In this document: positions 207 to 11,396 of the stretch, piece by piece
Position numbering within the stretch: position 1 is the first letter of the stretch
How the letters are laid out: each line of letters begins with the position of its first letter
From: a virus
Virus record (IMG/VR): IMGVR_UViG_3300030329_005549
Span: 1-34,560 of that record
Direction: 5' to 3' (one strand)
Length of the DNA: 34,560 nt
Notes under the pieces: model-generated
What the model saw: the letters and a program-made list of their open reading frames with translations, nothing else
Database searches by the model: none
Told to the model about the DNA's origin: nothing
Program-made: the position numbers and the translations under genes

Positions 207-1301
207 ATGCCTAGAGCGAAAAAAGACGTTTCGGGACTTTCCCCAAAAGACCAGATAGAAGCCTATTTAAAGTCCCATTCTGGAGATCATTACAACTTTG
301 AAGAAGAGAGAACTTATTGCGTGTCTAGCGGAAGTTTATTGCTTGACATTGAAATGGGTGGAGGCATCAGACCAGGCATCATTAGAGCCTCTGGTGTTTC
401 AGAGGGTGGAAAAACTTCATGTGCCTTAGCTTTTGCTAAAAATTTTCAAAAAGAAGATAACAGTATGGCTATCTATATCAAAGCTGAAGGTAGGCTATCT
501 AGTGACATGCTTGAACGTGCTGGAATCGATCAAAGCGATGAAAAATGGTTTACTTATAAAAGCAATGTTTATGAATCTGTTATTGATTTTATTAGACACA
601 TGGTTCAGAGTAACCCAGAGAACTATAGGTATATGTTTATAATTGACTCTATGGATGCATTAGTTCCTCGTGGAGACCTAGACAAAGGAGCAGATGAGGC
701 GATCAAGGTTGCGGGGGGTTCATTGCTTAGTTCTGATTTTTTAAAGAGAATGGCTTTAGGATTGGCTACTAGAGGACATATATGTTTTATGATCTCGCAA
801 GTACGCACGAAAGTTTCTATCAACCCTTATGAAAAAACAGACCCAAGGCTTACAAATGCTTCTGGAGGCAACGCTTTACTTCACTATAGTGATTGGATTT
901 TAGAATTCCAAGAGAGGTATAACAAAGATGTCATAAGCACCCAACCGAACGGCAAAGGTGATGCGCTTGGGCATTGGTGTAAAGTTGTTTTTAGAAAAAC
1001 CCCAAATGAAAAAACAGGCGCAATAGTTAAATACCCAATTCGCTACGGAAGAACAAATGGCAAAAGTATTTGGGCTGAGTACGAGGTTGTAGACATGCTC
1101 CTTCAGTTTGAAATGGCAGAAGCCAAAGGGGCTTGGGTTACAATATCTGACGAATTAATTAAAGAAGTAAAAGAAAAAACGAAGTTCGAACTCAAAAAAC
1201 AACATCAAGGCATGGACAATCTTAGAAAATACTTTGAGGAAAACGAGGATATTGGAAAATTTCTTTTTAAGAAGTTTAGGGAAACACTAAAAAAAGCATA
1301 A
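207..1301 (+). CDS. RecA/UvsX-like strand-exchange recombinase
   Basis: 364 residues, the usual length for RecA-type recombinases. The P-loop is GVSEGGKT at residues 63-70, diverged from the bacterial GPESSGKT. A glutamate follows in IKAEGRL (about residue 94), the Walker B strand is YMFIIDS (142-148), and the L1-like region is ALVPRGDLDKG. The QVRTK stretch near 198 matches the end of RecA strand 5, and the C-terminal GAWVTIS resembles the RecA GAWY segment. These proteins coat ssDNA and drive homologous pairing with ATP. It heads the first unit behind promoter P1 and its stop overlaps the next start (TAATG). The diverged P-loop suggests a phage-specific lineage. The family is secure; orthology to T4 UvsX specifically is not shown. 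Confidence 0.92.
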   Translation: MPRAKKDVSGLSPKDQIEAYLKSHSGDHYNFEEERTYCVSSGSLLLDIEMGGGIRPGIIRASGVSEGGKTSCALAFAKNFQKEDNSMAIYIKAEGRLSSDMLERAGIDQSDEKWFTYKSNVYESVIDFIRHMVQSNPENYRYMFIIDSMDALVPRGDLDKGADEAIKVAGGSLLSSDFLKRMALGLATRGHICFMISQVRTKVSINPYEKTDPRLTNASGGNALLHYSDWILEFQERYNKDVISTQPNGKGDALGHWCKVVFRKTPNEKTGAIVKYPIRYGRTNGKSIWAEYEVVDMLLQFEMAEAKGAWVTISDELIKEVKEKTKFELKKQHQGMDNLRKYFEENEDIGKFLFKKFRETLKKA

Positions 1302-2050
1302 TGTTTAATGATTATAAAATTCGTTGGAGCGACGGTAGGGAAGATTCTATTACCCTGTCAGATTCTACGCCACAATCTTTTGCGGTAGGTGGAATTGCGA
1401 CTGGTGAATTACCAGCATATACATTAGAGAATTTTAAAGCGCAAGACGGCGACATAATGATTGATGTTGGTGGGCATTGTGGGGTAGTTAGCATCTTTTA
1501 TGCTAAATTTTTTCCTAATCTAAAAATCTACGCTTATGAACCTATGCCAAATAATTTTGAAACCTTCAATCAGAATTTAAAAGCCAACAACGTGTCCAAC
1601 GTAGAAGTATTTAACTTAGCTGTGACTTCGAATGGTAGAGACGTTACCCTGTGCCAACCAATATCTAATACTGGAGGCGCAAACGTAACAGATTTTCTAC
1701 GCTCAAACGAAACAAAATACATGAAATTAGCAAAGGCTAAATCCACAACGTTAGATGACATTTTCAAAGAAAACAAAATTGAAAAATGTAAATTATTAAA
1801 AATGGACTGCGAGTGTTCTGAGCATGAAATTCTTCACAATTTTAGTTTCGATTACCCCATTGAAAACTTTATAGGGGAATTGCATATCAATGGAACCTTA
1901 AGGAGAAAAGGATACTCTATAGAAAAAATTATTGAAATACTTGACGCCAACAACGTAAAACACAAAACTGGAGCAATAGAAGTTGCCGATTCCGTAGAGG
2001 ATGATGGTAGGATTATTTCTTATGATTACGGGTTAATGGGACAGCTTTGA
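1301..2050 (+). CDS. FkbM-family SAM-dependent methyltransferase
   Basis: 249 residues. The SAM-binding motif I is MIDVGGHCG (53-61), followed by the acidic motif YAYEPMP (77-83). STTLDDIF (148-155) and LLKMDCECSE (165-174) match the conserved second half of FkbM enzymes, where the usual form is KxDxEGxE. FkbM proteins methylate hydroxyl groups, often on sugars. With the glycosyltransferases (11969-15063) and cupin (7847) in the same region, a role in modifying a phage or host glycan is a reasonable inference, but the substrate cannot be read from sequence. Its ATG overlaps the stop of the recombinase gene. The tmRNA begins 17 nt after its stop, so the RNA is probably cut from the same transcript. 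Confidence 0.85.
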   Translation: MFNDYKIRWSDGREDSITLSDSTPQSFAVGGIATGELPAYTLENFKAQDGDIMIDVGGHCGVVSIFYAKFFPNLKIYAYEPMPNNFETFNQNLKANNVSNVEVFNLAVTSNGRDVTLCQPISNTGGANVTDFLRSNETKYMKLAKAKSTTLDDIFKENKIEKCKLLKMDCECSEHEILHNFSFDYPIENFIGELHINGTLRRKGYSIEKIIEILDANNVKHKTGAIEVADSVEDDGRIISYDYGLMGQL

Positions 2051-2159
2051 TGTGTAAATGAATTTATGGGAGCGTACTGGATTCGATTTAGGGTCTTACG
2101 CTAAATTGCAAGCAGAGGATGATGGTTGGCCTCTTTAAACACCCATTAAAAACACACAT

Positions 2160-2267
2160 GCCAATGATAACATTGACATGGAGATGGCTCCTTCGGTAGC
2201 CGAGGCTGACGAGATTCTCGCTCAGTTCGGTTACGTTGAGGAGGAAGCCCTCCAAATGGCGGCATAG
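2160..2267 (+). other. tmRNA tag-peptide reading frame, unusually long (35 codons)
   Basis: The resume codon is taken as GCC at 2160, because the frame then starts ANDN, the beginning shared by many bacterial tags (E. coli ANDENYALAA). It continues without a stop for 35 codons to TAG at 2265-2267. The peptide begins ANDNIDMEMA and ends EEEALQMAA, so it keeps a double-alanine end of the kind ClpXP recognises. The TAG sits in the loop of the hairpin GGCGG/CCGCC (2258-2274), as tmRNA tag stops usually do. Of the other frames, one stops almost at once and the other gives a 13-residue product ending in arginine. Typical bacterial tags have about 8-20 residues. Confidence 0.8.
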
Positions 2268-2330
2268 TCCCGCCACGTCCTACTCTGGATGCTCGTTAAA
2301 GATGTAGGGCGACGACAGCGAGCAAAACAC

Positions 2331-2350
2331 TGGTTGAGTCTGGTTGAGTC
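2331..2350 (+). repeat. Perfect tandem 10-bp repeat inside the tmRNA
   Basis: TGGTTGAGTC occurs twice in direct succession (2331-2340 and 2341-2350), in the pseudoknot region downstream of the tag stop. The pair is flanked by ACTGG and CCAGT, which can form a 5-bp stem enclosing it. It looks like a recent slip duplication and partly explains the length of the RNA. Confidence 0.8.
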
Positions 2351-2499
2351 TCCAGTAGTTTAAAAAAAGATAGACCAAACTTTACGTGAAGTTGTCGGTG
2401 ACAGACACGTATCGCAAATAAACCGACTAAGCTTGTAGCACATTTGAGCCGATGGTTCTAAAGACGCGGGTTCAACTCCCGCCGCTTCCACCAATTTTA

Positions 2500-2919
2500 A
2501 TGAAATTGCTTGATATACATGGCAGACCCAGAAGCAGAACGGTCACAAAGTTTAAAGTAGATTGGAATAAAAAGTCCCGATCTAAACTCCAATTTAACGT
2601 AAAGCAATTTTTTAAACCCTATTGGGGGGGTCACATTGTGTACGAAGAGTTTCCAGTGTATGGGACAAGACTCAAAGTAGATATCCTCAATGCTACTAAG
2701 AAAATCGCTATAGAAGTTCAAGGGCAGCAGCACGAGTCTTTTAACAAGTTTTTTCACGATAATTCGAGGGCAAAATACCTAGACTCAATCAAGAGAGACG
2801 CTCAAAAAGCGGCTTGGTTAGAATCTAATGGTTTTGTAATTATGTATATTTACGAAAAGGATGTTCCAAATTTATCTTTGTCATTCTTTAGGGAGACTTA
2901 TGGGCTATCTATTGTGTAA
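2500..2919 (+). CDS. Small PD-(D/E)XK-type endonuclease next to the tmRNA
   Basis: 139 residues if the ATG at 2500 is used. The frame stays open back to 2452, but those codons are the 3' end of the tmRNA, so 2500 is preferred. An N-terminal glutamate pair (YEEF, 48-51) is followed by LKVDILN (D61) and AIEVQGQQH (E72-x-Q), a Vsr/EDxHD-like nuclease core. The C-terminal stretch AAWLESNGFVIMYIYEKD matches the closing strand of such folds. It could be a free-standing homing endonuclease, a repair enzyme or a junction nuclease. Its ATG is only 6 nt after the tmRNA CCA and has no Shine-Dalgarno site, so tmRNA 3' processing would leave this message almost leaderless. Confidence 0.7.
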   Translation: MKLLDIHGRPRSRTVTKFKVDWNKKSRSKLQFNVKQFFKPYWGGHIVYEEFPVYGTRLKVDILNATKKIAIEVQGQQHESFNKFFHDNSRAKYLDSIKRDAQKAAWLESNGFVIMYIYEKDVPNLSLSFFRETYGLSIV

Positions 2920-5700: not shown

Positions 5701-6626
5701 AAAATTGCTCTTGGTTATACTGGTGTAAATATCACCTTAAGCTGCCAGACAGCACGAATGATGGAGCCATCAGAGGCTCTATCTGTCACCTTATTTTTGA
5801 ATGCTTGCTAGAAGAACGCAGAAAGCCTTTGTTTGATACAATTATGAAGGCCAACGATTTGGAGTCGAGCCCTTCTATTATCAGGTTAGTCAACAAGCAC
5901 CTAACCAGAGAGGGCGCTCATACCCAAGAGAACTACGACATGATCAAGAAGATGGTTCTTGTTGGCCTTAAAAATGATTTTTACTGCAAAGGGAAAGCTC
6001 TTGGAATAGCAGAGCAAAAGTTTGATATAGTAAGTGAAAATCCGCCTTACAGAATTCTTGGCTTTATAGACAAACACGCCATTGACAAAAAGGAAGGCGC
6101 TGTAAGTATCATTGATTATAAATCAAGCAAAAGCAAATTCAGAGGGGAAGAGCTAGATTCAAACCCTCAAGCCATGATGTATTCTTTGGCCGCGAAAACC
6201 CTTTGGCCAAAAGTTAAAAAGCGTTTAGTCCAGTTTCTTTTCTTAAGATTTCCTCGTCAACCAGTTCAAGAGCTTGAATTTACAGATGATCAACTTCGTG
6301 GATTTGAATATTATCTGTCTCATATTTATGAGCAAATAAACAATTTTACAGAAGAGCTTGCGAAATCAAATTACGCAAAAGATAACCCTAAAGTTCATTG
6401 GCTCTGTGGGCCAGCTAAAAGTGGGTGGATTTGCCCGTATCAAAAACCCTTTGACTATTACGTTTTGCTTGACAAAGATTCAAGAATACTTCAAACTGCA
6501 TATGAAGAAGATGACCTTCCCAAAAAGAAAAAAGGTCAAACCATAGAAATAAGAAAGTATGAAGGATGCCCAAGGTTCTACTCCTCAAACGCGGAAAAAA
6601 ACCCTAACGACCCATTTGACTGGTAA
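5652..6626 (+). CDS. RecB/Cas4-like PD-(D/E)XK exonuclease with probable Fe-S cysteines
   Basis: 324 residues. RecB-family nuclease motifs appear in order: SASRIKTLENC (9-19), GSICHLIFE (42-50, H45), GFID (137-140, D140), IIDYKSSK (153-160, D155 and K157) and QAMMYSL (173-179, the QxxxY motif). Cysteines at 19 or 25, and at 252, 261 and 306, match the one-plus-three layout of AddB/Cas4 iron-sulfur nucleases. Such enzymes resect DNA ends, which fits with the recombinase and annealing protein here. The start at 5652 is supported by AAGGAGG 10 nt upstream, and the first 49 bases overlap the primase gene. The next gene begins in its stop codon (TAATG). Confidence 0.88.
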   Translation: MGENKQYLSASRIKTLENCSWLYWCKYHLKLPDSTNDGAIRGSICHLIFECLLEERRKPLFDTIMKANDLESSPSIIRLVNKHLTREGAHTQENYDMIKKMVLVGLKNDFYCKGKALGIAEQKFDIVSENPPYRILGFIDKHAIDKKEGAVSIIDYKSSKSKFRGEELDSNPQAMMYSLAAKTLWPKVKKRLVQFLFLRFPRQPVQELEFTDDQLRGFEYYLSHIYEQINNFTEELAKSNYAKDNPKVHWLCGPAKSGWICPYQKPFDYYVLLDKDSRILQTAYEEDDLPKKKKGQTIEIRKYEGCPRFYSSNAEKNPNDPFDW

Positions 6627-7384
6627 TGACGCCACTTTTTAAATCTCATTATTCTATTGGTAAGTCGATACTTACGTTAGAAGAGGAAGGCTCGTCTATG
6701 AAAAACGGGCCTCAATCAATTATTGATTTATGCAAGGAAGCTGGCATTAAAGATTTATATTTAGTAGAAGATTCAATGAGCGGCTTTTTACAAGGATATA
6801 TTAATTCAAAAGAATCGAAGTTAAACTTTCGATTTGGATTGAGGTTGAACGTGTGCGGCGATCTAAAAGAAAAAAACGAAGACTCACTCAACAAGACATC
6901 CAAGGTTGTTATATTCGCTAATAATCAAAAAGGGTATAAGCGGCTTATTAAAATTTCCACACAAGCTTCTCAAGAAGGGTTTTATTATCAACCGCGTACT
7001 GATTATAAAGCCTTAGCAAAACATTGGAATGATAAAGATTTAACTTTAGCTGTACCATTTTACGATTCGTTTTTGCATAGGAATGCGCTTCATGGAGCGG
7101 TCTGCGTTCCTGACTTTGGATTTGCTAAAAATTTAGTTTTTTTTGAAGAGGAAAATGATATACCTTTTAACTTTCTGATTAAAAACCATTTGAAAGAGTA
7201 TGTTAATGGTACTCATGAAACACTGAAGGTAAAGAGTATTTTCTACCCCAAAAAAGAAGACTTTAAAGCGTATCTGACATTCAGATGCATAAACAAAAGA
7301 ACAACCTTAGATAAGCCAAACTTAGAGCACATGACGAGTAATGAGTTTTGCTTGGAAAGTTGGAGTGAAGCAAATGCTAGTTAA
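6626..7384 (+). CDS. Detached PHP domain of DNA polymerase III alpha
   Basis: 252 residues that align by pattern to the N-terminal PHP domain of DnaE. Landmarks are SHYSIGKSILTL at the start, SIIDLCKEAGIKDLYLVEDSMSG, FRFGLRLNV, NNQKGYKRLIKIST, and the closing KKEDFKAYLTFRCINKRTT followed by SNEFCLES. The last part corresponds to the DnaE segment just before the palm. The usual PHP histidine and aspartate metal ligands are largely missing, so proofreading activity is unlikely. The catalytic core is a separate gene at 8829. The stand-alone domain presumably binds the core in trans to complete the enzyme. The start overlaps the previous stop, and the last 11 bases overlap the next gene. Confidence 0.8.
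   Translation: MTPLFKSHYSIGKSILTLEEEGSSMKNGPQSIIDLCKEAGIKDLYLVEDSMSGFLQGYINSKESKLNFRFGLRLNVCGDLKEKNEDSLNKTSKVVIFANNQKGYKRLIKISTQASQEGFYYQPRTDYKALAKHWNDKDLTLAVPFYDSFLHRNALHGAVCVPDFGFAKNLVFFEEENDIPFNFLIKNHLKEYVNGTHETLKVKSIFYPKKEDFKAYLTFRCINKRTTLDKPNLEHMTSNEFCLESWSEANAS
7362..7365 (+). promoter_or_regulatory. Ribosome binding site deciding the start at 7374
   Basis: GGAG ends 8 nt before ATG 7374. An upstream in-frame start near 7341 has no such site and would lengthen the overlap with the PHP gene, so 7374 is chosen. Confidence 0.55.
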
Positions 7385-8209: not shown

Positions 8210-8847
8210 TGGACGAACATCTACTCAGATTCGATAAAGAAAAAACTTTCGTATTCATCGACTGCGAAACCCTCAACCTTTGCTTGAATTCTTGCCATAA
8301 TCTGCCTTGGCAGATCGCTATGATTAAAGTAAAAGGAGGCAAAAAAGTTGCGGAGAAAGACATTTACATAAAATGGGATACAGATTTAAAAATTAGCGAA
8401 GGCGCTGCTAGAATTACGAGATACAGCCAGAAGACCGTTGATTCGCTAGGTATAGCCCCAGAAGAAGCCTTTCCAACTATAGAAGACTGGCTGGACAACG
8501 CAGACTATATTGTTGGTCATAACATTATAGGCTTCGATGTTTATTTAATTAAGGATTATTACAAATTACTTGGCAAATCTTCAGAGCATCTTTACCCCAA
8601 AATGATTGACACGAGCGCTATAGCGAGAGGGGTTAAAATGGGCATACCCTTTAAGAATGGAGACTCTCTGGCGGAATACCAATACATAGCTTATCACAGA
8701 AAGCAAAAAGGAATAAAAACAAACATGACTTCCTTGGGTAAAGAATTTGACATAGACCATGACTACGCTAATCTTCATAATGCCTTAATCGACTTAGGGC
8801 TTAATGTTAAAATTTGGGAAAAACTTAAATGGCAAATCGATCTTTAA
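8209..8847 (+). CDS. DnaQ-like 3'-5' exonuclease (DEDD family)
   Basis: 212 residues. Exo motif I is FVFIDCETLN (D18, E20). Motif II is YIVGHNIIGFDVYLI (D110). Motif III is LHNALIDLGL (H190, D195), the DEDDh form. The enzyme probably proofreads for the DnaE core encoded directly downstream; the two genes overlap by 19 bases, which favours coupled synthesis. It starts in the stop of the cupin gene (TAATG). In many bacteria this activity is a separate epsilon subunit, as here. Confidence 0.9.
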   Translation: MDEHLLRFDKEKTFVFIDCETLNLCLNSCHNLPWQIAMIKVKGGKKVAEKDIYIKWDTDLKISEGAARITRYSQKTVDSLGIAPEEAFPTIEDWLDNADYIVGHNIIGFDVYLIKDYYKLLGKSSEHLYPKMIDTSAIARGVKMGIPFKNGDSLAEYQYIAYHRKQKGIKTNMTSLGKEFDIDHDYANLHNALIDLGLNVKIWEKLKWQIDL

Positions 8848-11396
8848 CATTCGAAAAAAAATTCAAAGACTATGATCTTGATATACACGGCGTAAGACTG
8901 CCTCAATTCGAGATTGATAACACCTACAAGCACAGGCTTCATGTAAGTGAGGACTGTAACAATTTTGATTTTTTACGCAAGCTGTGCCTCACAGGCTTTA
9001 ACCAATTAAACGTCGAGAAAGATTCTGAGCTTTACAACAAATACGTAGAAAGAGCTAAATATGAATTAAACACCCTCAAAGAACTCGGTTTTATTGACTA
9101 TACTTTATTGGTATGGGATGTGATCAATTTCTGTAAAGAAAACGATATCCCAACTGGACTAGGGCGTGGGTCTGCCGCCGGGAGCTTGGTGTTATTTTTG
9201 ATTGGGGTAACGGGCGTTGACCCGATTAGACACGATTTATATTTTGAGAGATTCGTTTCAAAAATTCGTGCTAAAAAAACAGTTGTCGATGGGGTAACGT
9301 ACCTTGATGGGTCTTTGATGTGCGATGTAGATTTAGACATTTGCTACTATAGGCGACAAGAGGTAATTCAATATCTAGAAAATAAATTCAAAGGCAAAAC
9401 CGCTAAGATTATTACCATGAACACGCTCAGTGGTAAACTGCTGATAAAAGAATGCGGTAAAATTGTTGCTGAGAAAAACGAAACCGAAATGAATGGGGTA
9501 TCAGCGCTTATACCTAAAACATTTGGGCAAGTTATGGACATCGAAGAGGCTTATAAAGAAGAAGATAAGTTTCGTGATTGGTGTGATGATAATAAAACAG
9601 CTTATAAGGTAGCGCTTAAGCTTCGCGGTCTAATCAAAAACAAAGGGGTACACCCTTCTGCCATCTCCCTTTCTTACGAGAAGATGGAGGATTCTTGCCC
9701 AGCAGAATTAACTTCAGCGAAAGACTCTTCAGTGTCTTCGTATGATATGAATTGGATTTCTATTTTTAATGTTAAACTTGATTTGTTAGGGCTTCGCAGC
9801 GTCTCTGTTGTAGATGACGTATGTAAACAGGTTGGGCTAAGTTTGAATGAAATAGACTTGAATGACCCATTGATTTACAGGCAGCTTCAAGACTTAAAAA
9901 CGCCTCACGGGTGTTTTCAGATTGAAGCCGATACAAATTACAAAGTTTGCCAAAAAGTCATGCCAAAAAACATCGAAGAATTAAGTGCGGTTCTTGCTTT
10001 AGCTAGGCCGGGCGCGATGCAATTCGTCGATCAATATGCTTTGTACGTAAATAGTGATACATACGAACCTATCCATCCGTTCTTTGATGATACCTTAAAA
10101 GAAACGGGTGGCGTAGCTCTTTACCAAGAGCAGCTAATGAAAATGGCTAATAAAGTCGGGTTCACCCTCGATGAAGCTGAAATTTTACGCAGGATTGTTG
10201 GCAAGAAAAAGAGGGCGGAAGTTAAAAAGTGGAAAAACAAAATTTCAGATAAAATCAAAGAGAATAAACTAGACCCAGAAATTGGCGATATCCTCTGGCA
10301 AATTCTGGAAGATTCAGCTAATTATTCTTTTAATAAGTCTCACAGTATGAGCTATGCCGCTTTAGCTGCTGCGACAGTTTACCTTAAATTTAAATATCCA
10401 CAACAATTTTTCTTAAGCTTATTGAAGATGACTCGTCATGAGCCCGACCCAATTAGTGAAATTGCTAAAATTCATACGGAGATGAGCGAGTTTGACATAA
10501 AACTTTTACCACCTCATCTTACCCGTTCTGAAATGGACTTTAGTATCGAAGGTGATGATATTCGATTTGGTCTTTTATCCATTAAAGGTATTTCTGAAAA
10601 GTCAATTGAAAAAATAAATAACTTTAAAAATACTTATTCTGATAAGTTCGAAGTATTTATGGCCGCTAAAGAATCCAAGTTGAACATAGGTGTGCTTTCT
10701 GCTCTTATCCAAGCTGGGGCTTTAGAAGGGTTTAAGCAGTCACGCAGCAAAGTCGTACTAGAGGCCCAACTGTGGAACCTTTTGACGGATAGGGAACGCA
10801 GATACGTTATGAACTTTGCAAAGCAAATGGATTATGATTTAGTTGAAATCCTCAAGTTCTTGATGAAGTTCAAAGACGAAAAGGGGAAAGTTATAATCAA
10901 AGACTCTAGGTACGAAACAATAAAAAAGAAATATAAACCATATTTGGACATATATATACTTAATAGTAAATCTGAAAGCTTTGCGAATTGGTATTACGAA
11001 AAAATGCTTTTAGGTTATACTTACAACAAATCCTTGAAAGACATCTTCTCCCAAAGACGAGAAGACCTTTCTTCGATTAGGGAAATTGGAGAAATGCCAT
11101 TTAGGTCTAGGGCTATTTTTGTAGGACGGATAGAAGACACTTACAAAGGAAAATCAAAAAACGGCAATAAGTATTTCAAAGCGGTTATCTCTGATGAAAC
11201 AGGGCTTTTGCCCACCCTCATTTTTAAGGATAAAATGGATGAGTGCGAAAGCCTAAACGGCGGGTTCCCCAAGAAAACTAATATTGTAATTGTAAAAGGG
11301 CAAAAATTTGAAGACGCTATATTTGCTGATATGATTAGCGTTCAAGATACGAAGGTTTTTACCAAGCTTTCTGAATTGAAGGCAATTAAAAGTTGA
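8829..11396 (+). CDS. dnaE: DNA polymerase III alpha (DnaE) catalytic core without PHP domain
   Basis: 855 residues that begin where the palm of DnaE should begin (FLRKLCLTGFNQL). GLGRGSAAGSLV (111-121) is the family signature. CDVDLDICYYRR (165-176) supplies the two catalytic aspartates, and KLDLLGLR (316-323) the third. VHPSAISLS and ALARPGAMQFVDQY follow in family order, then fingers, a helix-hairpin-helix region and an OB-fold (RAIFVGRIEDTYKGKS near 757). The PHP domain normally at the N-terminus is a separate gene at 6626. The stop (TGA 11394-11396) is part of the -35 box of promoter P3. A clear beta-clamp motif was not identified. Confidence 0.95.
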   Translation: MANRSLTFEKKFKDYDLDIHGVRLPQFEIDNTYKHRLHVSEDCNNFDFLRKLCLTGFNQLNVEKDSELYNKYVERAKYELNTLKELGFIDYTLLVWDVINFCKENDIPTGLGRGSAAGSLVLFLIGVTGVDPIRHDLYFERFVSKIRAKKTVVDGVTYLDGSLMCDVDLDICYYRRQEVIQYLENKFKGKTAKIITMNTLSGKLLIKECGKIVAEKNETEMNGVSALIPKTFGQVMDIEEAYKEEDKFRDWCDDNKTAYKVALKLRGLIKNKGVHPSAISLSYEKMEDSCPAELTSAKDSSVSSYDMNWISIFNVKLDLLGLRSVSVVDDVCKQVGLSLNEIDLNDPLIYRQLQDLKTPHGCFQIEADTNYKVCQKVMPKNIEELSAVLALARPGAMQFVDQYALYVNSDTYEPIHPFFDDTLKETGGVALYQEQLMKMANKVGFTLDEAEILRRIVGKKKRAEVKKWKNKISDKIKENKLDPEIGDILWQILEDSANYSFNKSHSMSYAALAAATVYLKFKYPQQFFLSLLKMTRHEPDPISEIAKIHTEMSEFDIKLLPPHLTRSEMDFSIEGDDIRFGLLSIKGISEKSIEKINNFKNTYSDKFEVFMAAKESKLNIGVLSALIQAGALEGFKQSRSKVVLEAQLWNLLTDRERRYVMNFAKQMDYDLVEILKFLMKFKDEKGKVIIKDSRYETIKKKYKPYLDIYILNSKSESFANWYYEKMLLGYTYNKSLKDIFSQRREDLSSIREIGEMPFRSRAIFVGRIEDTYKGKSKNGNKYFKAVISDETGLLPTLIFKDKMDECESLNGGFPKKTNIVIVKGQKFEDAIFADMISVQDTKVFTKLSELKAIKS

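Follow-up and report, generated by a model that had tools for sequence, protein, structure and literature searches.

Why does a phage tmRNA encode a tag of 35 residues, over three times as long as is usual? The question arises from the stretch of DNA analysed here, hereafter the window, which is a linear IMG/VR virus contig of 34,560 bases. An original prediction, made from the letters of the sequence, had proposed that a tmRNA tag frame at 2160-2267 is unusually long and may serve a second function beyond proteolysis. The features on which the following analysis draws are:

207-1301, UvsX-like recombinase gene, before the methyltransferase gene
1301-2050, plus strand, FkbM-type methyltransferase gene, upstream neighbour of the tmRNA
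2068-2493, plus strand, one-piece tmRNA gene of 426 nt with encoded CCA (Rfam RF00023)
2068-2074, plus strand, 5' acceptor strand GGGAGCG, pairing with CGCTTCC near the 3' end (7/7 pairs including G3.U70)
2115-2148, plus strand, pseudoknot 1, arms GAGG/CCTC and TGATGG/CCCATTA (sequence reading and Rfam alignment)
2156, plus strand, A at position -4, counterpart of E. coli A86
2160-2264 (2160-2267 with the stop), plus strand, tag reading frame of 35 codons, ANDNIDMEMAPSVAEADEILAQFGYVEEEALQMAA, with resume codon GCC, followed by TAG at 2265-2267 (covariance model and translation)
2187-2234, plus strand, conserved core APSVAEADEILAQFGY, tag residues 10-25, with a predicted helix at residues 13-22 (pN/pS of 64 versions; AlphaFold)
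2257-2275, plus strand, helix 5 hairpin TGGCGG-CATAGTC-CCGCCA, 6 bp, with the TAG at 2265-2267 in its loop (folding)
2500-2919, plus strand, DUF559/endonuclease-like gene, downstream neighbour

The tmRNA gene and its tag frame

The Rfam model RF00023 matches the window end to end (model positions 1-374) with 130.8 bits (gathering score 47, E-value 3.6e-51) and is the only Rfam match in it, which bears out the predicted tmRNA. The permuted (two-piece) form had no match in the window in this search; the model of the standard form aligns at full length. Of the two programs proposed for checking the gene, the Rfam search thus supports it, whereas ARAGORN, run on the window, did not detect a tmRNA at 2068-2493. 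The acceptor stem, the G3.U70 pair and a 3' CCA, on which alanylation depends, are all present, the RNA ending in CCACCA with its last base at 2493. G3.U70 is the alanine identity pair, and a G-T at 3:70 is found in 56 of 57 relatives; the exception pairs at 1/7 positions and looks like a mis-detected 5' end.

In E. coli, A86 acts as a ruler, fixing the frame at a distance of four bases downstream, and 11 nt lie between pseudoknot 1 and the coding sequence (PMC2481249). The window has the same 11 nt between the end of pseudoknot 1 and the resume codon, and the A at 2156 stands four bases ahead. The covariance model places its GCa-AAC exactly on GCC-AAT at 2160 and gave no indication of another frame. 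Since the model aligns the resume codon there, and since the A at -4 (63/63 relatives), G3.U70 (56/57) and the stop codon enclosed by a hairpin (63/64) are conserved, the tag frame of the window is secure. As predicted, the frame from 2160 starts with ANDN and runs for 35 codons to a TAG held in a hairpin loop; the stem of this hairpin has 6 bp.

The further predictions of an acidic tag with a helical middle and a MAA end also hold: the net charge is -9, AlphaFold models of 31 tags show a helix at residues 13-22, a turn and a second helix at 28-34 (mean pLDDT 79.7), and MAA is a small hydrophobic, LAA-like end of the kind found in ClpXP-type ssrA degrons. The helix-turn may resemble UBA-type motifs, a likeness on which we make no claim, and the ends of the tags (ANDN..AEEAAVAA) may have an alphaproteobacterial look. 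A fold search with the 35-residue model yielded nothing significant.

Overall, the gene shares with E. coli ssrA (RF00023, tag ANDENYALAA) the tRNA-like domain with G3.U70, pseudoknot 1, the A at -4, the 11-nt spacing, the stop in the helix-5 loop and the hydrophobic C-terminal end. It differs in the tag itself, which has 35 instead of about 10 residues and contains a conserved internal core.

Relatives carrying the long tag

Using the neighbouring UvsX-like gene, we fetched 80 related viral loci, and every tmRNA with both ends found there carried the same core. Further members were collected from viral contigs with a DNA pattern for the core (covering EADxILAxxG), from which chance hits were removed. 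Together these yielded at least 64 distinct DNA versions in which the resume codon could be placed, encoding tags of 29-35 residues; a few extra members have a GGC or GAT resume codon, placed by analogy, and tags of 28-35 residues. The more than 60 distinct peptides, 28-35 residues long, have the common core APS[L/V]xEADxIL..FG[F/Y/W], and no relative with an early stop was found. Ten divergent members score 73-107 bits with the Rfam tmRNA model and the locus L332 scores 136 bits, which confirms all of them as tmRNAs. A profile of the tags recovered all nine phage records tried (E-values 2e-10 to 2e-20). In the phage collection searched, the tag is absent from cultured phages; the one weak match to the core (MT839445, E-value 0.4) is not a tmRNA by Rfam.

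The C-terminal ends are less uniform. Among 63 distinct tags, 46 end in AA, six in LV and two in VE. By E. coli rules LV and VE are poor ClpX ends, so that degradation is not assured for all members. The predicted ClpXP-type degron is therefore retained in most relatives, but not in all.

Other RNAs occur in some of these loci. Two long-tag phages have a Pistol ribozyme upstream of the tmRNA (L205:2145-2212, L272:2882-2950), and three have matches to abiF RNA (L237, L272, L289).

For several members (L009, L010, L011, L034, L044, L048, L049, L060) ARAGORN sets the beginning of the tag too far downstream, at EADEILA or close to it. We rejected these shorter tags: they would put the resume codon at RNA position 129-136, well outside the normal spacing, and would not account for the invariant upstream A at -4. 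Automatic annotation thus misses or mis-starts many long tags, and wrong tags will be reported.

Conservation of an internal core

Across 31 aligned tags, S12, E15, A16, D17, I19, L20, A21 and G24 are invariant, an invariance partly demanded by the search pattern. The 64 versions were likewise gathered in part with this pattern; we therefore considered the columns outside it, the 23 versions found only via UvsX, and the tags from another scan that used a different pattern. Outside the pattern, the serine in alignment column 13 is present in all 64 DNA versions, which use all six serine codons; the residue after the glycine is always tyrosine, tryptophan or phenylalanine, and two residues further on there is always glutamate or aspartate. 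By simple counting over all pairs, in which phylogeny is ignored, the core (columns 11-26) of the 64 versions has a pN of 0.16 and a pS of 0.56, and the C-terminal part a pN of 0.40. The 23 versions found via UvsX gave corresponding values (core pN 0.12, pS 0.37; C-terminal pN 0.35). The second scan added about 20 tmRNA tags, for example ..APSVAEADAFLKASGFVDAELLAA and ..APSVAEADAVLARFGYVNAEAVAA, and including EADAFLKASGF, EADAVLARFGY and EADAILNSFEF, in which the positions after EAD vary somewhat.

The core is thus conserved at the amino-acid level, by selection on the peptide, and more strictly than the degron at the C-terminus. No other part of the tag is conserved as well, and the core persists across very different tmRNA backbones: outside the tag these are mostly 41-55% identical between groups, compared with 44-94% for the 16-residue core (L332 lying at the low end). 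This strengthens the earlier suggestion of a function beyond that of a bare degron. Because tmRNA activity in E. coli tolerates changes in the tag template (PMC2481249), the conservation points to a role of the peptide after its release.

Comparison of the core with known sequences and folds gave no significant match, and a PDB search returned nothing. An origin of the core from a phage or host protein was rejected, as neither the pattern hits, examined for a convincing C-terminal match, nor PDB offered a source.

Distribution in phages and bacteria

At a threshold of 1e-5, the tag profile matched nothing in 1,345 bacterial genomes (385 from the class of an alphaproteobacterium, 369 from the class of a gammaproteobacterium, 295 from the class of a Bacteroidota genome and 296 from an actinobacterial phylum). 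Within these samples, the core is phage-only. Its near-invariance in dissimilar phages, together with its absence from all 1,345 genomes, makes the long tag probably the phage's own tagging signal.

Length also separates the two groups. The longest tag in 58 bacterial tmRNAs identified by ARAGORN had 17 residues, with modes at 10 and 9, whereas 15 of 36 tmRNAs from metagenomic viral contigs, among the matches listed for one tag-independent pattern and thus a sample rather than a census, had tags of at least 20 residues (Fisher p 6e-8). These include long-tag families unrelated to that of the window, such as DVELSTMTFEDAMAFVGADYAVAA and VKSQSERVAEGEAILASIFASEYALAA, whose tmRNAs are confirmed by Rfam. 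Their tags have about 20-27 residues and are alike within each group (L302, L308, L329, L356 and L357; L317, L322, L372 and L376); more such families or members are L310; L306; L340; and L355, L368 and L378.

Of the 97,179 sequences in a curated tmRNA collection of 2025, 79 come from phages, and the commonest tag length there is 10 residues (PMC11915505), so that the long-tag family seems to have gone largely unseen so far. In the part of the literature that we searched, we found no account of a 'long tag' of phage tmRNA.

Relationship to other unusual tmRNAs

Long phage tags as such are nevertheless already known, since the tmRNA annotated in mycobacteriophage ET08 (species Bxz1) encodes a tag that we reread from the sequence as ATDTDATVTDAEIEAFFAEEAAALV, 25 residues long, in agreement with the remark in the original prediction that longer tags have precedents in phages. 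What is new is the conserved core and its spread. The ET08 tag is also acidic and has AEEAA shortly before its end, but it is 10 residues shorter, has no APSxxEADxILxxFG core and shows no demonstrable homology to the window tag. ET08 further encodes a release-factor-like protein with an RF-1 domain (L420:36040-36450) and a peptidyl-tRNA hydrolase (L420:11565-11939), a gene set that suggests a wider ribosome-rescue kit.

The ssrA tag of Mesoplasma florum, of other length and sequence, is read by the Lon protease (mf-Lon) and not by ClpXP (PMC8138137). It shares with the window tag its unusual length and sequence, and illustrates that a changed tag can accompany a change of protease; however, its sequence is unrelated, it is encoded on a bacterial chromosome and its protease is known.

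A survey found ssrA in 402 of 18,146 phage genomes, and two-piece tmRNAs are described in marine phages, for example Melnitz and Pelagibacter phage Mosig (PMC9004378). These phages likewise encode a tmRNA, but theirs is permuted and of the alphaproteobacterial type, whereas that of the window is in one piece, and the long core is not described there.

We also came across unannotated phage tmRNAs: one in Mycobacterium phage SirSheldon (L419:1131-1533, tag about AAFVDADYAVAA), and permuted ones in Caulobacter phage CcrPW (L417:1471-1765, tag about VNDNDAPVMEQRLAA) and Stenotrophomonas phage DLP_6 (L418:1479-1700, tag about ANDDSFAPMAIAA). GOLLD RNA lies near a phage tmRNA in two cases (L419:2303-2716, L378:4832-5239).

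Genomic neighbourhood

The tmRNA starts 17 nt past the methyltransferase gene, within a co-oriented series of replication genes. Directly upstream of it no promoter-like site was found, and the tmRNA is therefore probably cut from a longer transcript. The longest ORF of the downstream nuclease-like gene reaches back to 2452, within the tmRNA, but translation more likely starts at the ATG at 2500. Further along the window, DNA polymerase III alpha appears to be split into two ORFs (6626-7384, matching the initial part of phrog_405, 62-188, and 8829-11396, matching 318-1082), with one cupin-like gene and one exonuclease gene between them.

SmpB is absent from the window record and from 48 of 49 other records tested, which may be fragments; SmpB of the host would accordingly be used. 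The one record of the 50 with SmpB (208807-209220, 161 bits) is L415, a 282-kb phage record that contains L378 and carries a tmRNA of another long-tag family. A comparison of the flanks revealed no gene near the tmRNA that is common to all long-tag groups, and we discarded the idea of a shared adaptor gene beside it, as none spans the groups.

Proposed function of the long tag

The window tmRNA very likely acts in trans-translation, judging from its conserved anatomy and established tmRNA biology. It would be charged with alanine by the host AlaRS, and SmpB and EF-Tu of the host would deliver it to ribosomes that have stalled on broken mRNA, where the alanine and the 35-residue tag would be added to the truncated protein. 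As our preferred reading, to which we give about an even chance, this ordinary trans-translation is combined with an extended, two-part degron: the C-terminus, which in most members reads LAA, VAA or MAA, would be a ClpXP-type signal, and the acidic helical core S-x-x-EAD-x-IL-x-x-FG-aromatic would be a second recognition element, docking on a protease, unfoldase or adaptor. Tagged products may then be handled differently or more strongly than with a host tag, which has about 10 residues, and the outcome would presumably be proteolysis. A likely benefit, given the position of the gene among replication genes, would be fast clearance of truncated proteins, with recycling of ribosomes and amino acids during phage replication.

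More tentatively, the core could be the dedicated handle of a phage-only tag, which would give rescued proteins a fate other than that given by the host tag, through another protease, an adaptor or a target of the phage's choosing.

That this fate is something other than bulk proteolysis appears unlikely to us. Rescued proteins would in this case be sequestered, protected or delivered elsewhere through a host or phage protein, the degron end being secondary. The stronger conservation of the core relative to the C-terminal end (pN 0.16 against 0.40), its restriction to phages in our samples and the members with LV or VE in place of an LAA-like end would fit, but AA ends are kept in 46 of the 63 tags, and the groups have no phage partner gene near the tmRNA in common.

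We regard as rather improbable that the extra residues act in or near the ribosome, either by providing a longer tag that clears the exit tunnel or through an effect of the core on termination or release on the tmRNA. A need for length would agree with the existence of several unrelated long-tag phage families, yet length alone leaves the strict conservation of the core sequence unexplained, and the tolerance of E. coli tmRNA for altered tag templates also speaks against this explanation.

Just as improbable, and already disfavoured by the data, is a plain ClpXP degron preceded by a long linker, in which the core would be alike through recent inheritance or a constraint of RNA structure. All members are from uncultured phages and the tag region does form local hairpins, but the amino acids are fixed in the face of high synonymous change, with all six serine codons at one position, and recent inheritance is insufficient to account for the likeness of cores whose tmRNA backbones have diverged to 41-55% identity.

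An independent small protein gene starting at an internal ATG and unrelated to tagging can be practically dismissed: a methionine does precede the core shortly in 57 of 63 distinct tags, but it is not conserved, being missing in several (L201, L216, L205, L272 and the DFAPS tags), and the frame joined to the resume codon is always open, with an invariant A at -4.

Bacterial tags are short and it is their end that matters, whereas here the inside is conserved, and only in phages. If the core does serve as a handle leading to a different fate, the phage would decide where the rescued proteins of the cell end up. If, following our preferred reading of a two-part degron, the core binds a protease or an adaptor, it would constitute a new natural degron and offer a direct route to understanding why phages carry tmRNA.
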